Below are positions 7,101-44,790 of a stretch of 44,790 nucleotides of DNA, in pieces (position 1 is the stretch's first letter; each line of letters begins with the position of its first letter). This stretch comes from Thraustochytrium sp. TN22 (Eukaryota; Sar; Bigyra; Thraustochytrida; Thraustochytriidae), in the NCBI GenBank assembly GCA_013306675.1, contig JABLUY010000052.1, positions 116,863 to 161,652 of the forward strand. Direction: 5' to 3'. The translations under genes were made by a program, and so were the position numbers. The notes under the pieces were generated by a model. That model worked only from the letters and a program-made list of their open reading frames with translations, ran no database searches and was not told the origin of the DNA.

Positions 7101-7980
7101 CGCACCCAGCGCGACTCGCCCGTCACATCGTTGTACCAGAACTTGCGCTTGGTCTTTTCGTCCCAGACCTCGCTCCACGCATCCTCGTCCTCGTCACCAG
7201 CCTCGCCCGAGCGGGCCTCGTCCTCGTCGCTGTAGTGCATGCCGCGGGCCTCCAAGGCGTCCCCGTCAATGCTGCTGCTGCTGCTGCTGCTGCTGCCGCT
7301 CCTCCTCTTGAAGGCCTCCGAGGGGTGCACGAAAGCTTGCTCGGGCCGCTCCCACTGTGAGACGCCCTCATACTTGTGAAAGTAGAAGATGCGCTCCGAG
7401 GCGGGGTCCATCATCACCTGTGACGCGCGGTCGCCATCGTCAGTGAGTGAGGCGGGCAGCGCCGCTGGCGTGTGCCGGACCTACCTCCCAGTCGCCGTGG
7501 AGGACGCGATCAGGCGTCTCGTACGTAGTCTGCAGTCGTCGCATCGCGCTCGTGCGTCAGTCTCCTCCTGCTGCTCCCTGCGCGCGTGCAGGTCGCCCGC
7601 CTTGCCTCGCTCGCTCGGCCGGCCCGCCAGAAAGCCACTGCCGCCAGCCGCGGCCGGCCGGCCCGCCCGCCAGCTTTGCGCCAGCCGTCTGCGCGGCTTT
7701 CGCCGCGCGTCTCGACGCCTGCGTGCCTTCCGCGCGGCCGCCTCGCTGGCCAGCCTCGCGCCGCGCCGCGCAGCGCCGCGCAGCGCCGCGCCGCGCCGCG
7801 CCGCGCAGTGCCGCGCAGCGCCGCGCAGCGCCGCGCCGCGCCGCCATGCCGCGCCGGCGGCGCACCCTGCTCGCGCCGCGCCCGCGCGCCACCTACCTCC
7901 TGCGTGTCGAGCTCGAAGAAGAACCATCGCCCCGACCGCGGGTCGCGCCGCCGCACCCACGCGCCGCCGCGCCCGGCCAT
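1121..7980 (-). CDS. Multi-WW, PH, SH3, RasGAP-like scaffold protein
   Basis: Three exons, 7897-7980, 7485-7529 and 1121-7417, give about 2141 residues. Seven WW domains are complete or nearly so in the two 5' exons and early exon 3, and another follows; I count eight, each with W/Y...GR.F(F/Y)(F/Y)N...(W/Y)xxP. Examples are GDWRMMKDNVTGRVFFYN and DDWEEIFDPGTGRTFFFN. Then come a long repeat linker with RRxSAMP and RSETE motifs, a polyQ tract (encoded near 4228-4300), a PH domain (about residues 1289-1399, starting LSGYLEKRARHGRKQWQRRF) and an SH3 domain (about 1414-1471, ALYD-like start degenerate but DDRWWVGE and GNFMPESVTLL clear). The helical region after that contains SFLFEALFLPALYWPGFLP, resembling the RasGAP FLRFxxPAI..P block; this assignment is my inference. 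The C-terminus ends with another Q/H-rich run. WW domains bind proline-rich ligands, PH binds phosphoinositides, so a membrane-associated GTPase regulator is likely. Confidence 0.8.
7418..7484 (-). other. Intron 2 of the WW/RasGAP-like gene (67 nt)
   Basis: On the minus strand the exon ends GACTGGGAG and the intron opens GTAGGT; it closes at CGTCACAG before GTGATGATGGAC. Both junctions are phase 0. Joining them makes the uninterrupted WW start GDWEVMMDPASERIFYF, which neither side has alone. This is why the gene cannot start at the methionines right after the acceptor. Confidence 0.8.
7530..7896 (-). other. Intron 1 of the WW/RasGAP-like gene (367 nt)
   Basis: On the minus strand the exon ends CAGGAG followed by GTAGGT, and the acceptor is CGACGACTGCAG before ACTACGTACGAG. 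Both junctions are phase 0. Joining creates a WW domain whose front half is WVRRRDPRSGRWFFFELDT and whose back half is QETTYETPD, with Tyr in place of the second Trp. The intron holds a GCGCC-type short tandem repeat block. Confidence 0.7.
7757..7842. repeat. GCGCC-type pentamer tandem repeat
   Basis: Runs of CGCCG/CGCAG pentamers fill this stretch inside intron 1 of the WW gene. The same kind of tract recurs at 35102-35148 and 39424-39482, each time outside coding sequence and near a gene's 5' side. It is simple sequence that is likely prone to slippage; no coding value is seen. Confidence 0.7.
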
Positions 7981-17475: not shown

Positions 17476-17844
17476 TCAGGTGATGGCGAAGACGGATCTG
17501 CTCACGTTTTCGCATCCTACCTTGGCTGAGAGTGAGCACGTATGATGTGGCATCCACATCATCCCGCGCGATGGCGTCTCTGCCATGGCCTTGTCCGCTG
17601 CATCGCCATTGTCCAGAGCTCGCACAGCTTGCTCGACGCTGGTCTGGTGGTCGCCACACGTAGCTCCTGCTTCGCTTGCGCGACGTGCAGCCTCCTCTTG
17701 CACTTCAAATCCGCCTTGCCAATCTATGTAGTCCGTCTTCCAGAGTCCAGGTGTGCGGTGCTCATTCGCAGCGGTGGCGCGCTCGACGCCGGCGAGCATG
17801 TCGCGGTCGTTCATGTCCTCGAGGGTGAAGATTCTGGGCACCAT
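17476..17844 (-). CDS. Possible small protein gene, head-to-head with the USP gene
   Basis: A 122-residue frame starting MVPRIFTLEDMNDRDMLAGV and ending SVFAIT. Its composition is balanced, with Trp, Tyr, Cys, His, Met and Asn present (GLWKTDYIDWQGGFEVQEEA), unlike the Arg/Ala/Pro-rich shadow frames common in this DNA. I recognise no family. Its ATG shares the palindrome CCATGG with the ATG of the plus-strand deubiquitinase gene, so the two genes cannot both use these starts without overlapping 5' leaders. Either this frame or the first stretch of the deubiquitinase frame may be wrongly started. A hairpin-forming inverted repeat (9-bp arms, 17542-17562) lies within it and encodes part of MMWMPHH. 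Confidence 0.35.
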   Translation of the reverse strand: MVPRIFTLEDMNDRDMLAGVERATAANEHRTPGLWKTDYIDWQGGFEVQEEAARRASEAGATCGDHQTSVEQAVRALDNGDAADKAMAETPSRGMMWMPHHTCSLSAKVGCENVSRSVFAIT

Positions 17845-20800
17845 GGGCGAACAGACCGAGTCCGAGTCCGAGCCCGAGGCGGCGGCGGGCGCGCGGCGAC
17901 GGCGGCGGCGGCGGCGGCGAGCGAGTGTGGCGCGGGAGCAGCGGCGCGGCGGCACCCGGCCGCGTGGCCACGCCCGGCCGCGCGCGGCGGCCGGTGGCGG
18001 CATCGCGCGAGTGCGGCGGGGCGGGATGGCGTCGCGCGAGCCGACCGCGCGGCGGCAGGTGCGGCCGCGCGGCGCCGGGCAGGAGGCCGCGAGCGGCCCG
18101 GCGTCGCCGCCCGCGACGCCCAGGTCCGTCTGCGAGCCGCAGCAGCCCAGCGCCGTGGAGCTGGACGAGGAGGACGAGCGCAAAGAGGACCTCTCCGACG
18201 GCTCGCCCCGCGCGCACAGCGCGCAGGACGACGCACACAACCGCGCGGAGCAGGCCCGCATCGTGCGGGTACTTTTCGAGCAGGCTGGAGGTCCTGACGC
18301 GGCAACGCGGCCGCTGGAGGAGCTCGAGGCCGCGGGCTTGCGAGGCCGCTTCGTGGCCGTCGCGGCGACCTGGTGGGCGCGCTGGGCGGCTTGGTCCGGC
18401 TTCGACCGGCCGGCGGCGTCGCCAGCGTCCTTGCCATCGCCCTCGCCAGCCCCAGGCCCTCTGCGCTTGAGCGCGGCGGGCAGCGGCGACGCCCTGGGCG
18501 TGCCCTCCGTGGACTTCCGGTGGGTACCGGAGGAGGCTTACCGCGCGCTGCGCGTGTGGCATCCGCCTTGCGACGACTCAGAGGTAGCGGCACCGGTGGG
18601 CACCGTCCACGCGAGCGAGGTGGCACTCTATGTGCCGAGCCTGGCAGCGAAGGACTGCCCGACGGCCACTGCGCGGAGGCGACGCGCGGGTCGCCGGTCG
18701 AGCAGCATCTACGAAGACTACGACCTGCCCAAGGACCCGGCGCACTGGGACTTGCGCTGGCCGCACCTGGCGGCCGGACAGCCCCACGCGGACTCGGCCG
18801 CAGCTGCGGGTCAATGCGAGACCTGCTGCGAGGACGGGGCGCGCAAGCTATGCGGCAAGTGCCGGCGCGCGCGGTACTGCAGCGAGGGGTGTCAGGCCGG
18901 TGCGTGGCGCTTTCACCGGCCGGTTTGCGGCAGCAGCGCGTCGCAAGCGAGCGCCGCCACGGCGCAGCGCGGGCTGGTCGGCCTGCGTAACCTGGGCAAC
19001 ACGTGCTACATGAATGCGACGCTGCAGTGTCTGAGCCACTGCTGGCCGCTCACACGGTACTTTCTGTCGAACCGCTTTCGGCAGGACCGCAACCTAGAGA
19101 GTGTCTTGGGTACCGGCGCGCGCTTCGCCATGGTCTGGGGCACACTCATCAAAGAGCTCTGGCTCGGGCCGCGGGCCGCCATTACGCCCGTTGCCATGAA
19201 ACGCGCCATTGGCACGCTGCCCGGGTCCGGAGGGCAGTTCGCCGGCTTCTCGCAGCACGATGCGCAGGAGCTCCTCATCTTTTTGCTGGACACGCTGCAC
19301 GAGGACCTCAACCTCGTGCAGTCCAAACCGTACTTTGCGGAGGTAGACAACCTGAGCGAGCCGCCGCGGGCCATCGCCGACCTCGCGGCCGAGTCGTGGG
19401 CCAACCACCTCAAGCGTGAGCACTCCATGGTGACGCATCTCTTTCAGGGCCAGCTGCACAACACGGTGGCGTGCCCGCAGTGCAAGTTTCAGTCCCACAC
19501 CTTCACGCCGTTCATGTACCTGCCGCTCGCCATCCCGGTGGACCGCGACCGCATCCTGCCTGTGACGGTGGTCCGTCAGGCTGTGGACGCCTCGGGCGCG
19601 CTGCATCTTAGCAAGGTGCGCTATGCTGTTGGCGTCCGGCCCGCGGCGCACTGCCGGCTTCTCAAGGTCCGGCTTGCAGAGCTCTGCGGGGTGCCGCCGC
19701 ACAAGCAGCTGCTTTTCCATACGCGCGATCAGACCGTCGAAGCGGAGCTCCTCGACGCCGACCCAGTGCGCGACATCCCAGGTGATGCAGACCTGGTCGT
19801 GTACGAGCTGGTCAAGCCGGCCGTCTTGGCTGCGGCGGCCCGCCGCCCCACGAACGCAGTGCAGATGGACGTGGACGAGGGCGCGGGCGCGGGCGCTGGT
19901 GTGAGCGTCCATGAGGATGACTTTAAGCTGCGCGAGATCATGCTGCTAATCAAGGCCGGCGCGGAAGACGGCGCGCAGACGCTGAGTCTCCCGCTCTTGA
20001 TGCGCGTGCCCACGGACCTGTCGTGCCGCGGCGTGCGTCGCGTTGTGGCGCGGGTGCTGAACGTCCTGCTCCTGGGGCGCGACCCGTGTGATGTCTCGGT
20101 GCTGGATCAACAAGCGGCCACCTTGGACCTTCGTCTGGTGGACGAGCATGGCAAGGCCGTCTCGCTTGACATGCGGGGCGTTGCCTCACCGCCTCCCTCG
20201 GATCAGGACGCCGCGCCGAACGCAGAAGCAGGGGCGGCCGAGCGCCCGGGCGGCGCCAGCCAGTTCTGCGATCGCGAGGACGTCCTTCTTGAGGACTATG
20301 TGGCCAAGCCCTTCTTCTTTCTGGCCGTGATGTGGAGCGAGGCTGGCGCCGAGGAGCAAAAGGGCGAGAACCAGAGCAAGCCTCCTGCCGCGGGCGGCAG
20401 ACAGAAGCAGCGTAAGCTGGCGGAGCGGCAGGAGCGCGCGCGGCCGCAGAACGCTGCTGCTGTTGCTGCTCCTCCTCCTGCTGTTGTTGCTGCTGCTGCT
20501 GCTCCTCCTGCTGCTGCTGCTGCTCCTGCTCCTGCGGCGGCGGCGGCGGTGGCGGCTGCGGCGGCTCGCCCTTTTAGCCCGAGTCTGCGGGGCGCCTTTG
20601 AGGAAGCGCCCTCGAGCGCGCTTGTTGAACACGAGTCTGTCCACCGGTGGCGGTCGTCCTCTCGTGTCCAATTCGCGCCGCGGGGGCGGCGCGGCGAGAC
20701 GTACAATCTACAGGAGTGTCTGGAGTTCTTCTCCAACAGCGAGCGGCTCGGTACCGGTAATGCGTGGAGCTGCCCCAAGTGCAAGACGGCGCAGGAGGCG

Positions 20801-21190
20801 GATAAGACCATGCGCATTATCAGACTTCCGGAGGTTCTGATCTTCTGCTTGAAGCGATTTGAACACCGCGGCCATGGCAAGATCTCCGCGCACGTGGACT
20901 TCCCTCTGCACTCCTTGGAAATGGCGCCCTTCCTCGCGGAGTTTGGTGGCGACAAAGAGAAGGAGGACTCGGTCTTTGACCTCTTTGCCGTCACGAACCA
21001 CATGGGCACCTCCGGTATGGGCCATTACACTGCCTTTGTGGCGCGCCAGGACGCCAGCGACGGCCCGGTGCGCTGGTTCCTCTGCGACGACAGCCGCGTC
21101 TCTGAGGAAGAAGCGTCCTCGGTCGTCTCCGCCTATGCGTACTGCCTGTACTACAAGCGCCGCCGGCCCTCGTCCACGCCCGAGTCTTGA
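17843..21190 (+). CDS. Ubiquitin carboxyl-terminal hydrolase with DUSP and MYND domains
   Basis: About 1115 residues from the ATG at 17843. An Arg-rich, acidic N-terminus leads to a DUSP-like region (about residues 150-275, RFVAVAATWWARWAAW and VPEEAYRALRVWHPP). A MYND zinc finger follows (about 325-363, CETCCEDGARKLC, CRRARYC, CQAGAWRFHRPVC). The USP catalytic domain begins at GLRNLGNTCYMNA, with nucleophile Cys388, and ends with the histidine box GHYTAFVA (His1061) and WFLCDDSRV. CPQCKFQSHTF and CPKCKTAQEAD provide the fingers' zinc ligands. A ubiquitin-like insert (around LKVRLAELCGVPPHKQLLF) splits the catalytic domain, as in USP4/15-type enzymes, and an Ala/Pro low-complexity run follows. 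The enzyme should remove ubiquitin from proteins. The start is uncertain: ATG at 18028 is an alternative that would avoid overlap with the minus-strand frame. Confidence 0.85.
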   Translation: MGEQTESESEPEAAAGARRRRRRRRRASVAREQRRGGTRPRGHARPRAAAGGGIARVRRGGMASREPTARRQVRPRGAGQEAASGPASPPATPRSVCEPQQPSAVELDEEDERKEDLSDGSPRAHSAQDDAHNRAEQARIVRVLFEQAGGPDAATRPLEELEAAGLRGRFVAVAATWWARWAAWSGFDRPAASPASLPSPSPAPGPLRLSAAGSGDALGVPSVDFRWVPEEAYRALRVWHPPCDDSEVAAPVGTVHASEVALYVPSLAAKDCPTATARRRRAGRRSSSIYEDYDLPKDPAHWDLRWPHLAAGQPHADSAAAAGQCETCCEDGARKLCGKCRRARYCSEGCQAGAWRFHRPVCGSSASQASAATAQRGLVGLRNLGNTCYMNATLQCLSHCWPLTRYFLSNRFRQDRNLESVLGTGARFAMVWGTLIKELWLGPRAAITPVAMKRAIGTLPGSGGQFAGFSQHDAQELLIFLLDTLHEDLNLVQSKPYFAEVDNLSEPPRAIADLAAESWANHLKREHSMVTHLFQGQLHNTVACPQCKFQSHTFTPFMYLPLAIPVDRDRILPVTVVRQAVDASGALHLSKVRYAVGVRPAAHCRLLKVRLAELCGVPPHKQLLFHTRDQTVEAELLDADPVRDIPGDADLVVYELVKPAVLAAAARRPTNAVQMDVDEGAGAGAGVSVHEDDFKLREIMLLIKAGAEDGAQTLSLPLLMRVPTDLSCRGVRRVVARVLNVLLLGRDPCDVSVLDQQAATLDLRLVDEHGKAVSLDMRGVASPPPSDQDAAPNAEAGAAERPGGASQFCDREDVLLEDYVAKPFFFLAVMWSEAGAEEQKGENQSKPPAAGGRQKQRKLAERQERARPQNAAAVAAPPPAVVAAAAAPPAAAAAPAPAAAAAVAAAAARPFSPSLRGAFEEAPSSALVEHESVHRWRSSSRVQFAPRGRRGETYNLQECLEFFSNSERLGTGNAWSCPKCKTAQEADKTMRIIRLPEVLIFCLKRFEHRGHGKISAHVDFPLHSLEMAPFLAEFGGDKEKEDSVFDLFAVTNHMGTSGMGHYTAFVARQDASDGPVRWFLCDDSRVSEEEASSVVSAYAYCLYYKRRRPSSTPES

Positions 21191-27311: not shown

Positions 27312-27865
27312 CGCGCCGGCCCAACCGCGCGAAGCCGCTCTGCGCCGCCCGTCTGCCCGGAGCGGCAGCAGCCTCAGCTGCCGAGTCGCAGCGCATCTTC
27401 ACATCTATCATCATATCTCACCAGCGTCAGCCGGGCGCCAGGTGAAGCGCCGCTCGAGCTCTCCCTGTCGGCGTCAGGACTCGGACTCGGACGGCACGAC
27501 ATCTCTGCGCGCTGCCAGCGCCGCGCCACGCCCGCCCTCCGAGCCTCGTAGCGAGCTCCAGCGCGAGCTCGAAGCTGCTCGACGATGCGAGGCGCGCTGC
27601 AGGAGCATGCGTGCGTCAATGGACGCTGCACCGCGCGCACGCTGGGCGCCGCGTGCGGCAGCGGCGCCTGGGCCTGCGCCGGCAGGACTCGCGCGTCGCC
27701 CGTGGCTGTGACCAGTGAAGTCGCTGCGCTGCGCTGCCAGTGCGCTGCGCTGGAGGCTGCCTGTCCCAGGATTGGGCGGTCCATGGCGAAGTTGGGGTTG
27801 CGCAGAGTTACCGTTCACCAGGGACTTGGGTCAAGCTAGCAAGCGAGCAAGCAAGCAAGCACGCA
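27312..27865. other. Divergent promoter region, MED30-like / meckelin
   Basis: About 550 nt. Overlapping frames exist but none is convincing. A CAAG/GCAA tetranucleotide run (27840-27861) lies immediately before the chosen meckelin ATG. Confidence 0.45.
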
Positions 27866-30800
27866 ATGGGCTCGCGCGAGGCAGCCGCCATGGAGCGCTT
27901 CGAGGCGAGGCGGCTGCGGGCCCTGGGCCCGGCGTCTTCGGGGTTCTTGTCGAGGCCGTCTTCGGGGTTCTTGTCGATGACCTCCTCGAGGGCGGTGCTG
28001 CTGGGCGTGATCGTCTCAGTGGTGCTGGGCGCGGCGCGCGGCGCAGAGAAGAGCATCGCCGTGACCGACTGCAGCGCGGACGAGTACCTGGACACAACGA
28101 ACTTCCAGTGTGTCACGTGCCCGAGTCCGCCCAACATGCCGCTGGCGACGGACGGCCTGGACATGCGTGTACCCGACCTCGAGCAACTGCTGCAGCCGTA
28201 CACGTCGCGGGACTATACGGTGGCGGCCGGGTGCCGGTGCTCCCCGGGCTGGATGGAGAATGAGGACGATCTGTACTCCGCGACGCCATGCCAGACCGCG
28301 GGCGCGCTGAGCAGCTACTGGTGCGACGCCTTCCGCTGCATGGAGTGTCCGACAGCGTCCTCAGTAGAAAACGATGCATGCATGGCGTGCGGGATGGAAA
28401 ACACGACGGACGGCTTGGGCATCTCATATGACGCGGCCTCGCACCAATGCGTGTGCGACGATGCGTCGCACGTACTGCGCGAGCGCGACGCGCACGGCGC
28501 CCTCCTCAACTACAAGGTCTGCGAAGAGTGCCCGGAGGGGTCCGTGCTGCGCACGCTGTACTTGGCGGCACGCGCAGCGGACGGCGTCACGGGCGACCCG
28601 GCTGTGACGGAACGCGATAGCTACATCTGCCAGCCGTGCCCGCACCCGTCCATGATCGTGCACAACAACCGATGCGTGTGCGCGCTCCCATCGGACAATG
28701 CGCCGCTTTGGACGCAAGTCGGTACGGAGGGCGTGGGCGACGGCGTGACCTGCGTGCTCACGTCCGAGCTGGCGTACTCGAACAAGCAGGGCTACGCCGA
28801 AGTCGAGTACACGCACGTGGTGCCATCGACGACGCCAACTGCGGACCTGCGGCGGGTCTTGCAGAGCGAAGGGCCGGGGACGTCGCTCGCGCCGGCGCCG
28901 GCGCCGGCGCCAAGGCAGGCGCGGCTGCGCAGGCGCGAGCTAGCGACCTCGAGGGAGGGCTACAGCACGTACACAGTGCGCAATTCGGTCGTCTTCTCGC
29001 ACTACTTTCCGCTCGCTGGCGCGCGGTGCCGCTACCTGCGGGACACGGACGGTGTACGTGCGTGCCAGACGCTGGCCAATCTGTGCGTGCTGCAGCAGTA
29101 CAATGACGAGACGCCGGCATGCGAGCTGCTCGCGGACATCCACCAGAATCGCAACCAGTGGAACGATGTCTCGTGGGACTGGCGCGAACTAACGCCCTGG
29201 GTTCGCTACGAGAACCTGGCGTCCTCAGTGCTCTCGGACACGGGCATCACCACCGAGTACTCCTTCGACATGGCCAAGAAGTCAGGCACCATGGACTACC
29301 TCCAGTTTGTCCTGGCGCGCTACAGCCTCGACGGCCGCTTCTTGGGCTGGTCCAATGTCACGACAGAGTTTGAGTTTTGTACGCCGACCGAGAACCAAGT
29401 CCCCCAGTGGCGAAACTTCGGCTACGGCTACGGGCGGTCCTATTCGTGCAACCTCTACAACCTGATGAGGTACTTTGACGAGCCGGAATTCTACGACCTG
29501 TACTTGGTGGACCACTCAAACGATGGCCGCCTCTTCCCGGTGCCGGTGCGCAACCGCAACCTGCGCGACGCGGGCAGTTTCCCGAACGAGAACGGAGAGC
29601 TGGCCGAGGAGGCCAACGACGTGCTCACGCGGCGCTTCTTCCTCTACGATCACATCTCCTCCAAGGTGTCAGTGAACGCGGAGCCTTCCGTTGTGCGCTA
29701 TGCCAAGGCCATCAAGCTCACCACAATGGTGCAGGACCTGGTCACGGAGCGCATCTTGCCGCCGGTGCTTGAGATCCTCTACGAGGAGCGCCTGGTGGCG
29801 GACTTTTACAGCGACGGCGTGGACGCGGACGGCGAGCCAAGCGACGACAACACGCACGTGACGCTCACCTTCACAGTCGAGTACACGGAGGACTACGAGG
29901 GTTTCTGGCGGTCGACCTCGGCCTTCTTCGGCATCACCATGACCGTGGTGGGCCTCTTCGGACTGCTGCGCATGTACAACTGGACACGGCGGAACTCCCG
30001 GCTACCGGGCGACACGCCAGTGGACTTTTCTTTCCTCATGCGCGGCGCCTCCTATATGCTGTCAACCTTCTCGCAGGTCTTCTTTTGGTTCCTCTTCGCG
30101 TACGCCTCGTACTTTTTTGTTTTCTTCAAGATGCAGGACAGCGTTCACCTGCTGCTGCCGGTCAACCGCGAGGAGTATGGGTCGGAAAACGACTACTACC
30201 CGTTCATGCTGCTGCTGCAGCTGTGCTTCTTTGGCCAAGTGGCGCGCATGCTCGAGATTGTCATCGTGCAGTCGAATGTGGACATCTTCTTTCTGGACTG
30301 GGAGAAGCCGCGCGGCCGTATTCAGAGCAAGCGCGGCGACGGGACCAAGACCAAGTTTGCGCCCATCAGCGTCTGGCGCACCATCTTCATGGCAAACGAG
30401 TGGAACGAGCTGCAGCGTCTCCGCAAGTACGACCTGGAGTTCGTGCTGCTGCTCTTGGCCACCATCCTTGTTGCCGGTGACGTTCAGTACGCGGCCACGC
30501 CCACGCCAAACTTCCGCGACCTGACGGCAGGCCCACTCAACGTCGTGCTGCGCTTCTTCAACACCTGTTTCTGGTACATGCTCATCACGGCCTCGCAGAT
30601 TCTCTTCAAGTGGCTCATTCAGGACCGCTACATCACCGAACCGCCGACGCACTCGCTCATTGACCTCTGCACCATCGCCAAGGTGTCCATCTTCGTGCTT
30701 GACGAGGAGTACCACGGCTACTACCTGCACTGCAGGTCTCAGCACGAGTTCGCGGACTGCAGCATGTTGGAAATCTCGCGGCAGCTGCGCCAGGAGGAGG

Positions 30801-31393
30801 AGGGCCTCACCACGGACCGCGGGCTTCCGGGCTGTCCGGAGCGCGGGATGCAGGCTTTTGAGATCTACCTCACCGGCGAATGGAAGCGACAGTACAACCA
30901 CATCTTCAGCAGCATGATGGCCGAGGAGATCCAGGGCGCGCACAGTGAGACGGGCTCCTTCTTGCTGCGCGTGCTGCGCCGCAAGAGCGGGCGCCCGGTC
31001 GCGGAGAAGCTTGTGCGCGCCTCGCGCAAGCTGTCCGCCTTCCTGCGCACCTTTGTGGACCAAGACACCTCCGAGTATCCGATCCAGCATCGCGAACAGA
31101 CCTTCTTCCATCGGTTCCTGCACACGCCGCCGGAGATGATGAACTCCAAGGACAACATATTCTTCCCGGACCGCTTCTACCAGTACGACCGCGTGCTGCT
31201 CTACGGACAGACGTGGAACCTCGTTCTCTTCAACATGCTCTGCATTACCACCTTCGACCTCTGGTGGGACGACACCACGCTCTCCATCTTTGCCGCCTTT
31301 CTGCTCGATCGCTTCTTCCTTGTCATTCGCGAGCTCTTTGGAAACGCCAACCTATCCCAGAAGACGCTCGTCGATGACAGATTCCTCGTGTAA
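27866..31393 (+). CDS. TMEM67: Meckelin (TMEM67/MKS3)
   Basis: About 1175 residues (human about 995). A signal-peptide-like segment (MTSSRAVLLGVIVSVVLG) follows a short repeat; its own ATG at 27977 is an alternative start. Residues about 70-320 are the cysteine-rich domain (CSADEYLDTTNFQCVTC, CDAFRCMECP, CEECPEGSV). A Pro/Ala/Arg linker precedes the conserved beta-rich region. Several membrane segments follow from about residue 690 (FFGITMTVVGLFGLL, FFWFLFAYASYFFVFF), and the meckelin hallmark VWRTIFMANEWNELQ preceded by DIFFLDWEKPRGR is present. The C-terminus ends NLSQKTLVDDRFLV, complete for the family. Meckelin sits at the ciliary transition zone with other MKS proteins and affects ciliary membrane composition; loss in humans causes Meckel syndrome. 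No intron interrupts the frame. Its presence implies a ciliated cell stage. Confidence 0.93.
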   Translation: MGSREAAAMERFEARRLRALGPASSGFLSRPSSGFLSMTSSRAVLLGVIVSVVLGAARGAEKSIAVTDCSADEYLDTTNFQCVTCPSPPNMPLATDGLDMRVPDLEQLLQPYTSRDYTVAAGCRCSPGWMENEDDLYSATPCQTAGALSSYWCDAFRCMECPTASSVENDACMACGMENTTDGLGISYDAASHQCVCDDASHVLRERDAHGALLNYKVCEECPEGSVLRTLYLAARAADGVTGDPAVTERDSYICQPCPHPSMIVHNNRCVCALPSDNAPLWTQVGTEGVGDGVTCVLTSELAYSNKQGYAEVEYTHVVPSTTPTADLRRVLQSEGPGTSLAPAPAPAPRQARLRRRELATSREGYSTYTVRNSVVFSHYFPLAGARCRYLRDTDGVRACQTLANLCVLQQYNDETPACELLADIHQNRNQWNDVSWDWRELTPWVRYENLASSVLSDTGITTEYSFDMAKKSGTMDYLQFVLARYSLDGRFLGWSNVTTEFEFCTPTENQVPQWRNFGYGYGRSYSCNLYNLMRYFDEPEFYDLYLVDHSNDGRLFPVPVRNRNLRDAGSFPNENGELAEEANDVLTRRFFLYDHISSKVSVNAEPSVVRYAKAIKLTTMVQDLVTERILPPVLEILYEERLVADFYSDGVDADGEPSDDNTHVTLTFTVEYTEDYEGFWRSTSAFFGITMTVVGLFGLLRMYNWTRRNSRLPGDTPVDFSFLMRGASYMLSTFSQVFFWFLFAYASYFFVFFKMQDSVHLLLPVNREEYGSENDYYPFMLLLQLCFFGQVARMLEIVIVQSNVDIFFLDWEKPRGRIQSKRGDGTKTKFAPISVWRTIFMANEWNELQRLRKYDLEFVLLLLATILVAGDVQYAATPTPNFRDLTAGPLNVVLRFFNTCFWYMLITASQILFKWLIQDRYITEPPTHSLIDLCTIAKVSIFVLDEEYHGYYLHCRSQHEFADCSMLEISRQLRQEEEGLTTDRGLPGCPERGMQAFEIYLTGEWKRQYNHIFSSMMAEEIQGAHSETGSFLLRVLRRKSGRPVAEKLVRASRKLSAFLRTFVDQDTSEYPIQHREQTFFHRFLHTPPEMMNSKDNIFFPDRFYQYDRVLLYGQTWNLVLFNMLCITTFDLWWDDTTLSIFAAFLLDRFFLVIRELFGNANLSQKTLVDDRFLV
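27934..27977 (+). repeat. 24-nt direct repeat in the meckelin N-terminus
   Basis: GTCTTCGGGGTTCTTGTCGA occurs at 27934 and again at 27958, giving SSGFLS twice in frame. The second copy ends at the internal ATG of the signal peptide. Confidence 0.85.
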
Positions 31394-31668: not shown

Positions 31669-32569
31669 TCACTCGCGATGCTCAAACTTGCTTCGCAACG
31701 CGGCAATCGACGAGGACGCCGACGAGGTTGTCTCCGCATCATCGGACGATGCTGCTGTCTTGAGGTCCTGCTTTTCTTGCTGCTGGGGCTGGAAGCGGGA
31801 CGCCAAGTCCGCCACACGGTGTGGCGTCGCGGCGGTAGCTTGCGAAAGCGGCCGCTCCGTCAAGCTTGGCCTCGCTGGTGAAGCGGCGTCCGTGTCCTTG
31901 GTCTTGCCACGCTGTTGGAAGCGCGAGGCGAGCTCCGACACATGCGGAGGGGTGCTGACCTCCTCGGCAGGCTTCGATGGCGACGAGGACGGTGATGGTG
32001 AATGCGGCGCGCTATCGCTCTTCTGCTGGAAGCGCGACGCCAAGTCTGCGACGCTGCGCGGCCGCTCCGAAGGACCTCGGCTCGACGGGGCAAAAGTGGC
32101 GGTAGCACTGCCTTCACGGGGCACTGCGCCTTCGGATTTGACTCGAGGAAGCATTTTGCGCTCCGGAGGGGACGCGCTCTGCGGGGGTACGGCTGCAGTG
32201 ACGATGTCCTCCTCGGCAGCCTCGTCATCCTCTTTGGCTGGAGGGCTCCTGGAGGGCGGCGGCGGCCTCGACCCGGACTGCCGTCGTGGAAGACTCGTCT
32301 TGGTGGGCGGCGGCGGGCGCGAGGTGGTGGACTTGGACTTTTGCGGCGGCGGCGGCCTAGAGCCGCTGGACCCCGCGGTATGCGGCCGGGCTGTGGCCGC
32401 GCTACTTCGAGCGCGCACCTGCGCCTGAGCCGAAGCATCCTCGTCCAGGTCGCCCTGGGACGAGGAGGACGAGAATGAGCGAGTACGCTGCGGCGGGCTA
32501 CGTCGCGGCGGCGGTGCTCGCGTGGGGGCGAGTGGCTCGCTGCTGCTCAGCATCTCAAAGGCCCGCGGC

Positions 32570-32607
<38 letters not shown>

Positions 32608-35007
32608 ACCTATCGACGCTGTCTCAAAGGCTCGCGCCGGGGGCGGAGGTGGTGGGGGCGTGCCCGATGGTTTAGGAGGCGGCGGCGGGGGCGTGCCAGA
32701 CGGCTTCGGAGGCGGCGGCGGCGGAGGAGGAGGACCAACGCCCGAAGTCGGCGGCTTGGGCGGCATGGGTGGTGGCACCTCGGGCTGCAGCGGCTCGTGG
32801 GACGCAGCTGCAAAGGACGTAGCTGCCTGCGACGCCAATGCCGGAGCAGGAACATAGGTGGAGAGCCCAAGGAGATCGGCAGACTTGCGCGGGGGTATGG
32901 GCGGGCGTTCCAGCATGTCTGGGGTGAGCGGCGGCTTGAGCGGGATGTTGGGCGCAAAAACGTGCTCATGCAGGTCGCGGAAGCCAGGAATGGGCGCCGC
33001 GGCATAACGCAGATTGCGCAACTGCGCGTCGGACTCCTTCCGGCGCGAAGCGAGGAAGAGGCGATGGCCGCCCTGGGGCGCGCGCTCCCAGCACAACGTC
33101 CGGCGGTCCATGAGAGTGTGGAAGACAACAGCGGCGGCGCGGTGCAGTTGCTTGATGGACTCGATGGAGCGGGCACGGCGCAAGTCGCCACCAAGGCGAA
33201 GCAGGCGCGCGATGAGGTCAATGTGGCGCCAGGCGGAGGCCAGGGTGACCTCGGAGCCGGCGGAGAGCAGGAAGCGCAGCAGCAGCATGGCGTTGTAGCC
33301 GCCTCGCCACGCCTTGGGCGTGGTCTGCGCGACGCGGCGCCAGATGGCCTTGTTGGTGGCGACTGCGACACTGACATTGTAGGAGCGGCGCGCGAGCTTG
33401 TTGAAGGCCTCGTCGGTGTCCGGGTCGAACTTGGGGTTGGTTCGGATTGACGTGGGCATGGCGAGCAGCGCCTCGTTTATGGCGGCCTGCGGTGTGTGGC
33501 AAGTGCGCACCGGGAGCGCTCTGGCGAAGACGCGCTTGATATCGGCCCAAGGCGGGTCGGCACCGTGAACCTGGTCGCAGACGGAGAAGAAGACGCGGTC
33601 TTCGAGCGCCTGGAGCTCGCGCATCTCGGCCTCGCGGCGGAAGCCGCCCGTGGCAGCGGAGGTGGCGCTGGCCGCGGGCAGCTGGCTGCGACGCTGGCTG
33701 CGGTGCTCGACGAGGCGCTCGACGTAATGATTGAACATTTGTGTGTGCGCGAAAATGCGGCAGAAGCGCTGCAGAGAGGGGTCGGCGACGCGAGCCACGA
33801 AAGCCTCCTTGTGAATTTCGCCCGAACGAGCGTCGACGTCACGGTCCGCACGGCCGAATACGTACACGAAAAAGGCCATCCAGCAGGTGCGCATGGCCTG
33901 CTCGTCAACGTGGCGCGTGCCGCCGCCACCGGACCTGTTGCAAAGCGCCTGGACGTCGGCGGCGAAGATGGAGGAGATACGTTGCGGCTCCTCGGCGCGC
34001 GCGCGGTCGGGGCGCGCGCGCGCGGCCAGGCCCTTGTCGGGCGAGAGCTCGCCGAGCGGCGTCAGCTCCTGGCTATGAATAAGATTGCGGTCGAGGTCCA
34101 CCTTGATCACGCTGCCGAGCGGCAGGTGCTGGAGGCGCGGCTCGAGCGCGCGCACGACGCCGACAATGTAGGGCGACGGCGCGCCAAGGTAGTCGAGCAG
34201 GTGCTCTGGCATGAGCGGGACGAGCATGTGCTGCCAGACGAACGGGTAGATGAGTGCGAGGATGCCGTGAATGATGGTCGAGATGACGGACTCGCGCTCG
34301 CTGATGAAAATGAGGCGATTCTCGTTCATGACGAGCCCGACCAGGTGGTGCACGAGCTGCGCGGACAGGTGCCTGAAGACCAGGTGCACATGGCCCTTTT
34401 CGTGAAGGAGCGGGCGCGTGAACCTGTAGTCGCACATGACGCCACCGACGGGGCTGCGCACGCGAAAGTGGGCGCCCGGTGGCGGTGGCGGGTTCATCCC
34501 GGCCAGCGCGTGCAGGAGGCCGGTGGCGGCCTCGGGCTCGAGCAAGAGGCGCGCCTCCACGCAGTCCAGGATGCGGAGAAAGAGGTCGACCTCGAAGCGG
34601 CGAGTCATGAAGCAGAGCACCTCTGGGAATCTGGCCTCGGCGTCGGCGCGTCGCGGGTACTTGCCTGTGGGCAGCACCTTGCGGCAGAATCCGTACATGT
34701 ACTCGCCCGTCTGCATCGTGAGCGCGAAGACATAGGTGTACGGCTTGAGGTATTGCCTGCGCGTCTCAAAGCTGAGTCGCGGGAAGCAAAAAACAGGCAT
34801 GCCCGCGACGCCCTCCTGCACGCCCTCCAGCTCCGCCTTGCCCTCCGGGAACTGCCACTTGAGCACGGCCCTGCGCTTCTCGCCGGCGCTCTCCTGCACC
34901 GCGGCCACCAGGAAGCTTTCAAACAGCGGCCGCTGCTGCAGCACCGCCGCGCCCTGCGGCTGCAATTGCTGCGGCGGCATTTGCTGCGCCTGCTGCTGCC
35001 TCTGCAT
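31669..35007 (-). CDS. DENN-domain protein fused to an ENTH-like domain
   Basis: About 1112 residues from MQRQQQAQQMPPQQ. Residues about 27-450 form the tripartite DENN module: uDENN (LFESFLVAAVQE, PVFCFPRLSFETRR), core DENN (NENRLIFISERESVISTIIH, LIYPFVWQHMLVPLMPEHLL, LGAPSPYIVGV) and dDENN. DENN proteins activate Rab GTPases. After it, residues about 515-650 match an ENTH fold: LARRSYNVSVAVATNKAIWR, AWRGGYNAMLLLRFLLSAGS and a following helix IDLIARLLRLGG align with epsin (LTYNVVAFSEIMSMIWKR, NWRHVYKAMTLMEYLIKTGS). ENTH domains bind phosphoinositides at coated pits. The C-terminal part has poly-Pro runs, then the repeated motif LASRFQQ (three clear copies and one weaker). Upstream of the ATG the frame stays open but is Arg/Gly-rich. 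The stop is 276 nt from the meckelin stop. Confidence 0.8.
32570..32740 (-). repeat. Polyproline-coding repeat
   Basis: CCG/CCT/CCA tracts give runs of 7-13 prolines separated by KPSGT and RAFE, resembling the FH1-type profilin/SH3/WW ligands. The WW/SH3 scaffold at 1121-7980 could in principle bind such runs. Confidence 0.75.
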
Positions 35008-35717
35008 TCCCCCTCCCTCCCGCGCGCCAGGCCGGCCTCCAAGGCGTCGTCCTCCGCGTCGCCGAGCTTGCTCGTCCCAGCCGCGCCGCGTCGCCCGCCC
35101 TGCGCCGCGCCGCGCCGCGCCGCGCCGCGCCGCGCCGCGCCGCCGCGAGGGCCGCCTCGCGCGCCGCGGCCCGCCGCCGCGGCCCCGCGCGCGCCCTCGC
35201 GGTCTGCCCGCGGCGCGCGCGCGCGCGTTCAAAATTCGAAATCCGAAGCTGCGCCGCTGGGAGCTCAGCCGAGTCAGGTCAGGCTGCGCGAGCTTGCTTG
35301 CCGCACGTGGTACTATCTAACAGCCACGGTACCATGGTAAGGTTAACGAAGTAGTAACACGACGAAAGCAACTCGAAGGCTGGCTAGCTCTAAGTTGAGC
35401 AGGGCCGCGCCCAACACCTTCTGGGCACGGCGGTTGGGCGACTTTGGACTCTCGGCGCCAAGTGGCGGCGGCGGCGGCGGCCAGTGGCGGCTTGGCCCAG
35501 AAAGTCGACCTCCCGGGCGCTGGCACTGGCAGTGGATCCGCACTGCGCGCGCAAAGCAAAGCGAGCAGCGGGCACTGGCACCACCCATCCCGGTCAACGG
35601 CGGGCGAGGAAAGGTCGCGGGCGGGCGGGCGGCTGGCGGCGCAGAGCGGGATCGAGGCAGGCAGCGGGGAGGCGCGCGAGCCGGCAGGCTGGCAGGTGGC
35701 GGAGCGCGGGAGGGAGG
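35008..35717. other. Divergent promoter region, DENN-ENTH / ADSL
   Basis: About 710 nt. It holds a GCGCC pentamer repeat at 35102-35148, a CGCGCG run near 35215-35228 and GGCTGGCTAGC near 35379. No gene is seen. The ADSL frame stays open upstream of its ATG but shows no family sequence there. Confidence 0.5.
35102..35148. repeat. GCGCC-type pentamer tandem repeat
   Basis: About nine perfect CGCGC/CGCCG-type pentamers, just 5' of the DENN-ENTH gene start. It is of the same type as the block in the WW-gene intron. Confidence 0.8.
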
Positions 35718-37166
35718 ATGGAGGCCGCCAGGATGGACGACGTGTACGAGAACCCGCTGACGAAGCGGTACGCGTCGGCGGAGATGAGCTTCTTGTGGAG
35801 CGCGGACAAGAAGTTCTCGACGTGGCGGCGGATCTGGCTGGCGCTGGCGGAGAGCGAGCAGGAGCTCGGGCTGGAGATCTCGGACGAGCAGCTGGAGGAG
35901 ATGCGCGCGAACCTGCTCAACATCAACTACGAGTACGCGGAGATGATGGAGAAGGAGCTGCGCCATGACGTCATGTCGCACATTCACGCGTGGGGCGAGC
36001 AGTGCCCCAAGGCGCGACCGGTGATCCACCTGGGTGCCACGAGCTGCTTCGTGGTGGACAACACGGAGCAGATCCAAATGTTCGAGTCGCTGGAGCTCGT
36101 GCACCAGAAGCTGCTCGTGCTCATGAGCCGGCTCTCGGAGTTCGCCATGGAGAACCGGTCGCGGCCGACGCTGGGCTTCACGCACTACCAGCCCGCGCAG
36201 CTCGTGACGGTGGGCAAGCGCGCGTCGCTCTGGCTGCAGGACTTTCTGCTGGACTTTCAGCACCTGGAGCGCGAGATGAACATCCCGCTGCGCGGCGTCA
36301 AGGGCACCACGGGCACGCAGGCGAGCTTCCTGGAGCTCTTCGACGGCGACCACGACAAGGTGCTGCAGCTGAACCAGCTTGTGCTGCGCCGGCTTGGTTT
36401 TGAGAAGTCCATCGCGGTCTCGGGCCAGACATACACGCGCAAGCTCGACTTTTACATCCTCACGGTGCTCTCCGGCCTGGCGCAGTCGGCGCACAAGATG
36501 TGCACGGACATTCGCCTGCTGGCGAACCTCAAGGAGATCGAGGAGCCCTTTGGCAAGAAGCAGGTGGGCTCCTCGGCCATGGCGTACAAGCGCAACCCGA
36601 TGCGCTCGGAGCGCGTCTGTTCGCTGGCGCGCTACGTCATGTGCCTGCTGCAGAACACCGCCATGACGCACAGCACGCAGTGGATGGAGCGCACCCTCGA
36701 TGACTCTGCGAACCGCCGCCTCGTGCTGCCGGAGGCCTTTCTGGCCACGGACGCCCTGCTCACCATTTGCATTGACGTCGTCACCGGCCTGCACGTGTGG
36801 CCCAAGGTCATCGAGGCGCGCGTGCAGAGCGAGCTGCCCTTTATGGCCACCGAGAACATCCTCATGGAGGCCGTCAAGCACGGCGGCGACCGTCAGACGC
36901 TGCACGAGGTCATTCGCGAGCACTCCATGGCCGCGGCCCGCGTGGTCAAGGGCGAGGGCGGCGCCAACGACCTCATGGAGCGCATCCAGGGAGACGACCG
37001 CTTCTCCGCCATCCATGACAAGCTCCATGAGATCCTCGACCCGCTCAACTTCGTCGGCCGTGCGCCCGAGCAGGTGCAGGACTTTATCGCTACCGAAGTC
37101 CAGCCGGTCCTCGATGCCAACGTCAAGGTGATTGATGACTTCGTCGACAGCCAGCTCAAGGTTTGA
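35718..37166 (+). CDS. ADSL: Adenylosuccinate lyase
   Basis: A 482-residue enzyme (human 484). It cleaves SAICAR and adenylosuccinate to release fumarate in purine synthesis. The sequence is intact: HLGATSCFVVDNTE, FTHYQPAQLVTVGKRA, RGVKGTTGTQASFLELF and the fumarase/aspartase superfamily signature GSSAMAYKRNPMRSE, where the usual AMPYKRNP has Ala in place of Pro. WMERTLDDSANRR and FMATENILMEAVK follow, and it ends DDFVDSQLKV. The version resembles the animal type rather than the short bacterial PurB. MDDVYENPLTKRY, the conserved N-terminus, starts five codons after the chosen ATG, so either methionine could be used. There is no intron. A decayed copy of its own 3' end lies about 120 nt downstream. 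Confidence 0.95.
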   Translation: MEAARMDDVYENPLTKRYASAEMSFLWSADKKFSTWRRIWLALAESEQELGLEISDEQLEEMRANLLNINYEYAEMMEKELRHDVMSHIHAWGEQCPKARPVIHLGATSCFVVDNTEQIQMFESLELVHQKLLVLMSRLSEFAMENRSRPTLGFTHYQPAQLVTVGKRASLWLQDFLLDFQHLEREMNIPLRGVKGTTGTQASFLELFDGDHDKVLQLNQLVLRRLGFEKSIAVSGQTYTRKLDFYILTVLSGLAQSAHKMCTDIRLLANLKEIEEPFGKKQVGSSAMAYKRNPMRSERVCSLARYVMCLLQNTAMTHSTQWMERTLDDSANRRLVLPEAFLATDALLTICIDVVTGLHVWPKVIEARVQSELPFMATENILMEAVKHGGDRQTLHEVIREHSMAAARVVKGEGGANDLMERIQGDDRFSAIHDKLHEILDPLNFVGRAPEQVQDFIATEVQPVLDANVKVIDDFVDSQLKV

Positions 37167-42603: not shown

Positions 42604-44724
42604 TCATCGCGGTGTTGGGGACCTGGAGCGGAAGCGAGCTCTGCTCCGCGTCGACCGCGACCTCGAGGACGATTCGCTGGGCCGGAGTGGCTCGCTACTG
42701 GTGGAAGCTTGGGCAGCCGCCTCGACGCGGCTGACGTCGCTTGACGAGGTCGAAGAAGATTTCGGGTGCGCATCGCTGGCAGGCAGGTGGATGCCGAGGA
42801 GCGAGAGAAGTACACGGAGCTGCTCGCCCTTGCGCCAAATGGCTGTGCAGCCGGCGTCCAGCAAGCGCTGCGTCTCGACCGGGTCCTCCTCGCCAGTGAC
42901 GCCGACAATGGGGCCCGTGTAGCCGAGGGCGCGGATTTCGCGCGTTGCGCCGATGCCGTCCAAGGGCCCGGGCATGTACTTGTCCATGGTGATGGCACCG
43001 AAGGCCTCGAGGCCGTGCTCCGCCAGGAGACGCACCGCGGACTCCCCGTCAGCCACCTCCTCAATGTGCACCGAACTTTCCGTCTTGCTCATTTGCCGGG
43101 TGATGAAGGTGCGCAGCATCAGCCGGTTCGTGGCGCTGTCATCCACAATGAGAAGACGCTTCTCCACCAGAGGTGATGGCGGGCGAATCGGGCTTGGTGG
43201 CGCTCGAGGTTGCGCCAAGATCGCAGGCGCAGGCGCCTGCGAGAAAGGAAGGCGCAACGAGGCCTCGAAGGCGCTGCCCACGCCGACCTCGGACTGGACC
43301 TCCAAGCGACCTTCGTCGTAGGCCTCGATAATGCGCTTCGAGAAAGACAGGCCGAGGCCAGCGCCACCGAGGTCGAGGGCTTCGCCGGGGCGAGTCCGCT
43401 TGAAGGGCACAAAGAGGTCGGCAATCACGGCAGGCGCAATGCCGGGTCCCGAATCGCGCACGAGGAAGTGCAGCAGCACGCTGCGCGTGGCTGGGTCCTC
43501 CTTTGCGCGCACTGCAACGTACACTTGGCCGCCATCCGGCGTGAACCTGATCGCGTTGCTCACCAGGTTATTGAGGGCTTGCGCGAGCAGCGCCACACAG
43601 CCGTCGACACGCGGCAGCGCTTTGACCGTGGGATCCTCCACAAGTGAGAAATGGACGGATTTCAGGACCTCGCCGGCGCCGGTGGATGCTGCAAAGCGGC
43701 GCATGCCGGCCACCAGGTCGCCGGAGACGGAAAAGGCGCTAGCCTGACCGCGCCACGAGCGAGAGGTGGCCTCCATACGCGAGAGGTGCAAAATGTTCTC
43801 CATGAGCGAGGAGATGTTGCTGTGCGACTTGGTCAGCACGCTGATGTCGCTCTGCGCCGCACGGCCGAGCGTGCGGTTGCTCGCGAGCGAGTCGAGCGCC
43901 AGCGCACCTGCGAAAAACAGGTTGCGGTACTCGTGGCTGACAAAGTGGAAGATGGTGCGCAGGTGCTGCAGCTTGTGCACTTGCATCACCTCCAGCTCGC
44001 AGTACACGGCCTTGGCGCGCATTGTCGCGAACAGCGTCCCCACGATCAAAGTCACTGCGTTGAATATCAGGGCGTAGTGGTTCGCATACCATTCCATGGC
44101 CTCAGGGTTAACCGCGCGAAGGTCAGCGACCGCGAACCAAGTAAAGATCAGGAGGTGGACCATGGTCGCTGCGAAGGAGTCCTTGATGAGGCAGTCAATG
44201 AAGAAGCGCTGCCACAGCATGCCAATGTAGATGGAGGAGAGGTTCCAACTGTAAAGTTCCGCCGTGCGCCTCGGGACGTCGCTAATCAGGTAGAGGTAGT
44301 CCGTCACGGTGTAGTGGAACCTCAGCGCATGGGGGTAACGTTTCGTGAGCGGTCTGGTCCCAATGATGTGCGCGCAAATGATGGGCACATGTCGCAGCGC
44401 CTTGGCGTTCAGCTCAAACGCGCTTGGAAGGAGGACGACAGCTGAGCAAACGTAAATCCAAGGGACTTTCTGGTTCGCCCACTCGAGCAGCTTGTGGCGC
44501 GCCTGCACGAAGTGTTGGTTGCTGTCCCTGCGCACCGCAACTCCGAGCGCACGGTCCAGCCGCGGGCCAAGGCCCAGCGTCACAACCTCCTCCGCCAGGT
44601 CGGTCTGCGCGAACGCCCACCGCAGCGCGCTGTCCACGCGCGCCGCGGCGCGCCGCGCCCAGGTCGTCGCCTCGCGCGCCTCGCCTGCTGCCCCAGCGGC
44701 GGCCGTGGTCGCGGCGCACGCCAT
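42604..44724 (-). CDS. Hybrid histidine kinase 2, tandem paralogue
   Basis: 706 residues with the same order as kinase 1: N-terminal LGLGPRLDRALGVAVRR, five or six membrane segments (WIYVCSAVVLLPSAFEL, YIGMLWQRFFIDCLIKDSF, ALIFNAVTLIVGTLFATM), HFVSHEYRNLFFAGALALDS (His264), ATPase motifs LNNLVSNAIRFTPDGG, RDSGPGI and GAGLGLSFSKR, and a receiver with LLIVDDS, Asp581 in AITMDKYMPG, GVTGEED and WRKGEQ. The C-terminal tail is Ser/Arg-rich (SSSRSRSTRSRARFRSRS), unlike kinase 1. Both sensors share the YFGM/YIGMLW..R....CLIK.SF...MVHL block, which I do not recognise from other kinases. The gene reads in the same direction as kinase 1, about 430 nt upstream, so the pair arose by tandem duplication and then diverged considerably. 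Confidence 0.87.
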   Translation of the reverse strand: MACAATTAAAGAAGEAREATTWARRAAARVDSALRWAFAQTDLAEEVVTLGLGPRLDRALGVAVRRDSNQHFVQARHKLLEWANQKVPWIYVCSAVVLLPSAFELNAKALRHVPIICAHIIGTRPLTKRYPHALRFHYTVTDYLYLISDVPRRTAELYSWNLSSIYIGMLWQRFFIDCLIKDSFAATMVHLLIFTWFAVADLRAVNPEAMEWYANHYALIFNAVTLIVGTLFATMRAKAVYCELEVMQVHKLQHLRTIFHFVSHEYRNLFFAGALALDSLASNRTLGRAAQSDISVLTKSHSNISSLMENILHLSRMEATSRSWRGQASAFSVSGDLVAGMRRFAASTGAGEVLKSVHFSLVEDPTVKALPRVDGCVALLAQALNNLVSNAIRFTPDGGQVYVAVRAKEDPATRSVLLHFLVRDSGPGIAPAVIADLFVPFKRTRPGEALDLGGAGLGLSFSKRIIEAYDEGRLEVQSEVGVGSAFEASLRLPFSQAPAPAILAQPRAPPSPIRPPSPLVEKRLLIVDDSATNRLMLRTFITRQMSKTESSVHIEEVADGESAVRLLAEHGLEAFGAITMDKYMPGPLDGIGATREIRALGYTGPIVGVTGEEDPVETQRLLDAGCTAIWRKGEQLRVLLSLLGIHLPASDAHPKSSSTSSSDVSRVEAAAQASTSSEPLRPSESSSRSRSTRSRARFRSRSPTPR

Positions 44725-44790
44725 GCGGCCGCCGCGGCACGGCCCGGACGCCCGCCGGCCGCCAGCGCGAGGGGCGCCCTGCCCTGCTCG
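44725..44790. other. Window end, 5' flank of kinase 2
   Basis: GC-rich sequence immediately upstream of the kinase 2 ATG; too short to interpret. Confidence 0.4.

Follow-up and report, generated by a model that had tools for sequence, protein, structure and literature searches.

A DENN module and an ENTH domain in a single reading frame of Thraustochytrium sp. TN22

The fusion of a DENN module with an ENTH domain within one open reading frame of Thraustochytrium sp. TN22 is well supported by sequence comparison. In the window, by which we mean the whole 44,790-nucleotide stretch of DNA analysed, the gene is a single uninterrupted minus-strand frame (31669-35007, 1112 aa; open reading frame listing and translation). 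Its predicted product carries, from N- to C-terminus, a uDENN domain, a DENN domain, a weak dDENN match, an ENTH domain and a 447-residue proline-rich tail. A sequence-only reading of this DNA had proposed that DENN and ENTH belong to a single protein, and the Pfam profile, shuffled controls, a profile–profile comparison and an unbroken coding signal at the join all bear this out. The interval given there, 32900-35007, holds at its start (35007), but the gene extends past 32900 to 31669.

Gene and reading frame

31669..35007, minus strand: whole DENN-ENTH gene, 1112 codons plus stop; first in-frame ATG at 35007, stop at 31669

The local DNA is 67% G+C, and the opposite strand is itself open for 629 codons (33451-35340, plus strand). 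G+C-rich DNA gives long open frames cheaply, and the case for the gene is therefore made by its domain matches and codon signal, not by openness alone. Third-position GC lies at 0.78-0.93 in every 60-codon window wholly inside residues 1-660. Across the join between DENN and ENTH, the six 60-codon windows covering residues 391-600 range from 0.78 to 0.92, and the coding signal is unbroken; in the windows from residue 661 onwards it drops to 0.65-0.78.

The DENN module

34678..34854, minus strand: uDENN (longin) domain, residues 52-110; Pfam PF03456, E 7.5e-7, 29.9 bits, cut-off 22.3
34084..34629, minus strand: DENN domain, residues 127-308; Pfam PF02141, E 1.4e-31
33700..33813, minus strand: weak dDENN domain, residues 399-436; Pfam PF03455, E 0.0012, 19.4 bits, below the cut-off of 26.8

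To call this a full DENN module, as was done earlier, is slightly too strong: uDENN and DENN pass their Pfam cut-offs, but dDENN, at 19.4 bits against 26.8, does not, though its match sits where the domain order would place it. A second stretch of alignment with DENND1A is co-linear with the dDENN region and not significant (-2.4 bits). The nearest solved relative of the DENN part is DENND1B (3tw8, E 1.6e-25, residues 33-323); no DENN chain other than DENND1A and DENND1B occurs among the four PDB matches found up to E=10.

At least 12 DENN loci are present in the genome, the DENN-ENTH gene included (all genome locus counts given here are lower bounds). Ranked against a DENND1B fragment, this gene comes first among the 12 with 88.9 bits, leading the next paralogue (82.3 bits) by 6.6 bits, with the rest at 62.2 bits or less; by the general DENN profile it is only seventh. 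Three of the 12 match part of the DENN profile only and consequently score low against DENND1B. The ranking points to a DENND1-like paralogue and falls short of proof, since the assignment is one-sided, with the DENND1B fragment as its sole reference. At the second-ranked locus (L003, 175-2637), the frame continues into what appear by eye to be pentatricopeptide repeats.

Identity of the ENTH domain

33103..33495, minus strand: ENTH domain, residues 505-635; extent judged by eye, with the core set by the profile and the outer helices by comparison with epsin rows
33193..33417, minus strand: ENTH core, residues 531-605; Pfam PF01417, cut-off 24

The ENTH pattern had been recognized by eye, in an alignment with epsin over about 65 residues. 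When the segment is compared with HMM profiles, PF01417 lies above its cut-off of 24 in each of three settings: on the whole protein (29.1 bits, E 1.1e-6), on the isolated segment of residues 470-690 (32.5 bits, E 9.7e-8) and in the genome search (33.8 bits, E 7.8e-7). Apart from it, Pfam lists just one family for the segment up to E=10, DUF5488 (E 0.079), in a listing from which HMMER's filters remove most matches above about 0.1. A four-row ENTH profile, built from the genome's own epsin, two near-identical epsin 1 rows and epsin 4, gives the protein 22.7 bits, against at most 5.2 for 2000 shuffled versions of the 221-residue segment, and hhalign returns a probability of 91.7 with E 7.9e-7 over 68 columns. 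Pfam, shuffles and hhalign thus agree that the alignment by eye was right, beyond what chance would give.

Within the aligned part, 9 of the 19 positions invariant in the four ENTH rows are identical, four are conservative replacements (I-L, T-S, Y-F, I-L) and six are otherwise different; the W, WR and GSE of the core are retained. The solved chains nearest to the segment are CLINT1 (2qy7, E 1.9e-4), epsin 4 (1xgw, 2.5e-4) and epsin 1 (5lp0, 7.6e-4). The Pfam match spans positions 20-93 of the 124 in the profile, some 60% of it, and the alignable stretch amounts to only about 60-75 residues; the first and last helices of the domain were placed by eye only. Two AlphaFold2 models computed without relatives are mostly helical, with low mean pLDDT values of 44.0 and 43.5, and indicate a helical tendency at most.

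Two other identities were considered for the segment and rejected. ANTH and VHS are listed by Pfam for neither the protein nor the segment. Designed ankyrin-repeat chains fill most of the PDB list, with a best E of 0.001 (query residues 87-122); the strongest single stretch of that best chain reaches 12.4 bits, and ankyrin is absent from the Pfam listing of the segment.

Lipid-binding features

33511..33552, minus strand: candidate internal helix 0, residues 486-499; amphipathic, net charge +2, hydrophobic moment 0.57

Among the lipid contacts of epsin 1, which we take to be R63, K69 and H73, the first two have kept counterparts (R558 and K565), and the counterpart of H73 is changed to glycine (G569). 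Residues 500-665 hold 28 lysines and arginines versus 13 aspartates and glutamates. Just ahead of the ENTH domain, residues 486-499 form a basic amphipathic stretch whose hydrophobic moment ranks fifth among the 1099 overlapping 14-mers of the protein. It might serve as an internal helix 0, although a proline stands at each of its ends. The helix 0 of epsin 1 arises at the N-terminus on PtdIns(4,5)P2 membranes and inserts into them, and phosphoinositide binding is a property of most ENTH domains (both from PMC6914677, in excerpt).

The proline-rich tail

31672..33012, minus strand: proline-rich tail, residues 666-1112; rich in class-II SH3 motifs, with long proline runs
32029..32052, minus strand: C-terminal repeat 1, VADLASRF, residues 986-993; DNA and protein pattern
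31918..31941, minus strand: C-terminal repeat 2, VSELASRF, residues 1023-1030; DNA and protein pattern
31792..31815, minus strand: C-terminal repeat 3, VADLASRF, residues 1065-1072; DNA and protein pattern
31684..31707, minus strand: C-terminal repeat 4, IAALRSKF, diverged, residues 1101-1108; protein pattern only, DNA pattern unmatched

The tail was scanned with patterns that we take to represent the SH3 and coat motifs. It contains 12 class-II SH3 motifs, overlaps counted, against 2.77 expected, a number reached in none of 2000 shuffles, and no class-I motif against 2.83 expected. The same scan finds no clathrin box, DP[FW], FxDxF, DxF, WxxF, FxxF or NPF in the tail, and a single DLL. Such motifs are rare by chance, with 0.00-0.10 expected in the tail for each of clathrin box, DP[FW], FxDxF, WxxF and NPF, and 0.00-0.41 when DxF and FxxF are included. 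Pfam lists no family for the tail up to E=10 and hence no UIM. In the tail of the genome's own epsin we count three DP[FW] (0.32 expected), eight DxF (2.85 expected), five FxxF (1.42 expected) and one DLL, with no class-II SH3 motif, clathrin box, FxDxF or NPF.

Near the C-terminus, a short motif recurs four times. The protein pattern, which was derived from these same four copies, finds a copy in none of 20000 shuffles of residues 966-1112, and the DNA pattern has three exact matches in the genome, all inside the DENN-ENTH gene. As a guess, the repeat might be a partner-binding helix.

Genome-wide context

In the genome (37.9 Mb, 453 contigs), two ENTH loci are found at E<=0.001: the DENN-ENTH gene and an ordinary epsin, with its ENTH domain at residues 22-143 (119.8 bits). 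In alignment with the DENN-ENTH gene product, this epsin is 20% identical. Across the 12 DENN loci, taken as stretches with about 1.5 kb of flanking DNA on each side of the DENN match, or less where the contig ends, and therefore not always containing whole genes, the four-row ENTH profile gives 23.0 bits for the DENN-ENTH frame and 5.7 bits for the next of 124 open frames of at least 150 aa. Further searches find one ANTH locus, two VHS loci, one clathrin propeller locus and three PF02883 loci; a bacterial control also gives one PF02883 match, which is below the cut-off. For PF02296 (the C-terminal part of the AP-2 alpha ear) the genome has no match, but the controls are silent too and absence is not claimed.

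Relatives were also sought in contig collections. Residues 1-692 yield no pattern match in viral contigs and 18 stretches in genome contigs, none confirmed; in viral contigs, the own epsin ENTH domain yields four stretches and the four-row ENTH alignment 84, again with none confirmed. These collections consist of viruses and prokaryotes, so the absence of relatives there says little about eukaryotes.

Neighbouring genes and other loci

Downstream of the DENN-ENTH gene, a single open frame (27740-31393, plus strand) encodes Meckelin/TMEM67 (Pfam E 1.5e-174). Meckelin is a ciliary protein, and the gene suggests a flagellated stage. On the other side lies an adenylosuccinate lyase gene (35484-37166, plus strand), oriented divergently to the DENN-ENTH gene; a megablast of this lyase gene against plasmids returns no match. 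Elsewhere in the window we find a ubiquitin hydrolase with a MYND finger (17753-21190, plus strand), a histidine-kinase ATPase with a receiver domain in one frame that is still open at the window end (42604-44790, minus strand), and a frame of 2098 codons that encodes six WW stretches along with a PH and an SH3 domain (1121-7417, minus strand). The WW and SH3 domains of the latter could bind proline-rich tails such as that of the DENN-ENTH protein. In the genome, a PfaA-type polyunsaturated fatty acid synthase occupies one 3044-codon frame (G000:C124, L016 and L017). This synthase, the Meckelin gene and the abundance of long open frames would suit a thraustochytrid or a different labyrinthulid.

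Comparison with known systems

DENND1A acts as a GEF on Rab35 and carries clathrin, AP-2 and SH3 motifs (PMC3785455, in excerpt). The protein described here resembles DENND1A/B (connecdenn) in its N-terminal DENN module, its proline-rich tail with SH3 motifs and the best DENND1B score of the 12 loci. It differs from them in carrying an ENTH domain between module and tail, and in a tail that, apart from the one DLL, holds none of the clathrin-box or AP-2 motifs. With the ENTH adaptors epsin 1 and EpsinR/CLINT1 it shares the ENTH core; here, however, the core is internal (531-605) and fused to DENN, only a candidate amphipathic stretch precedes it, and the tail shows no DPW, NPF, clathrin box or Pfam match. 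CALM/AP180 (ANTH) and the VHS proteins belong to the same helical-adaptor superfamily (PMC3473312, PMC6914677), but neither domain is listed for this protein or its segment.

In one collection of open-licence literature, represented mostly by titles and the starts of abstracts, no published DENN-ENTH protein was found. The available text of a DENN survey (PMC3521125) holds no mention of ENTH, and that of an ENTH/ANTH/VHS survey (PMC3473312) and of an endocytosis survey (PMC4824007) no mention of DENN. In two of the papers that contain both terms (PMC10323252 and PMC9492833), the contexts are unrelated as far as the available text goes. CALM is described as having gained few accessory domains in its evolution (PMC4450294, in excerpt).

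Discussion

On balance, we lean towards reading the protein as a connecdenn-like Rab exchange factor that is recruited to membranes by an internal ENTH domain. The ENTH domain would bind phosphoinositides on an endocytic or endosomal membrane that is budding or has just formed and would bring the DENN module there, the DENN module would load a Rab with GTP at that membrane, and the class-II SH3 motifs of the tail would draw in SH3 partners, perhaps from the actin machinery. ENTH recruitment would then directly fill the role assumed for the clathrin and AP-2 motifs of animal DENND1A. We infer each functional step (lipid binding, exchange activity and the Rab target) from sequence. In favour of this reading we count the ENTH match over its cut-off with no comparable rival family, the gap to the shuffles, the DENND1B ranking, the enrichment of SH3 motifs in a tail devoid of most coat motifs, the kept R558 and K565, and the basic amphipathic stretch before ENTH. 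Against it we count G569 in place of H73, the internal position of ENTH, the differences at six of 19 invariant positions, profile coverage of about 60%, the low-pLDDT models, the one-sided DENND1 assignment, the rarity of coat motifs by chance, the lack of some of them in the genome's own epsin too, and the failure of the viral and prokaryotic collections to yield a relative that would show conservation.

The ENTH fold may be real and yet serve to bind protein (cargo, a SNARE, or the DENN module itself, as a regulator), with lipid binding lost. The internal position, the glycine at the counterpart of H73 and the weak outer helices would fit, as would the ENTH domain of CLINT1/EpsinR, described as cargo-selective (PMC10323252, in excerpt); the kept R558 and K565, the 28 basic against 13 acidic residues and the basic amphipathic stretch ahead speak for lipid instead, and we regard a purely protein-binding domain as unlikely. 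Convergence is much less probable still: in that case a helical extension of a DENN protein, unrelated to ENTH, would have come to resemble it. The short alignable stretch and the low-confidence models would allow it; the Pfam cut-off is nevertheless passed, with an E of 9.7e-8 on the segment, the W, WR and GSE are kept, and a profile that gives 23.0 bits here reaches 5.7 at best in the other frames of the DENN loci.

Two separate genes, joined by an assembly or splicing artefact so that DENN and ENTH in truth sit in different proteins, would be about as improbable. Long frames do come easily at 67% G+C, as the 629-codon frame on the other strand illustrates, and introns could explain why three of the 12 DENN loci match their profile in part. 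Both domains nonetheless share one frame without a stop, third-position GC holds at 0.78-0.92 over the join, and no ENTH locus was found in the genome that might be a free copy, besides the 20%-identical epsin. A different kind of explanation, compatible with the others, is that the architecture is taxon-wide in labyrinthulids or stramenopiles and reflects ordinary domain shuffling with no special function. It may perhaps already be in automatic domain databases. Against it, the open-licence literature gave no text match and the surveys of DENN and of ENTH are, in their available text, silent on each other's domain; we hold this possible but not probable.

Returning to the connecdenn-like exchange factor, a tail rich in SH3 motifs and lacking most coat motifs fits an ENTH domain that takes the place of coat binding in bringing such a factor to the membrane. 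The earlier suggestion that the protein couples coat assembly to Rab activation is plausible from its domain content; with one DLL as the only coat motif found in the tail, any link to a coat would run through ENTH or through SH3 partners. Usually, several mutually binding proteins share the work of passing a vesicle from its coat stage to its Rab identity. We tentatively suggest, with less confidence than we have in ENTH-based recruitment itself, that ENTH replaced the clathrin and AP-2 motifs, so that one protein would sense the phosphoinositide and curvature of a forming vesicle and directly write its Rab identity, a lineage-specific rewiring from coat to Rab. If true, a membrane-sensing adaptor and Rab exchange would be united in one molecule, and their coupling could be tested by removing one domain; the link provided by connecdenn in animals would then have a differently constructed equivalent in a distant eukaryote.
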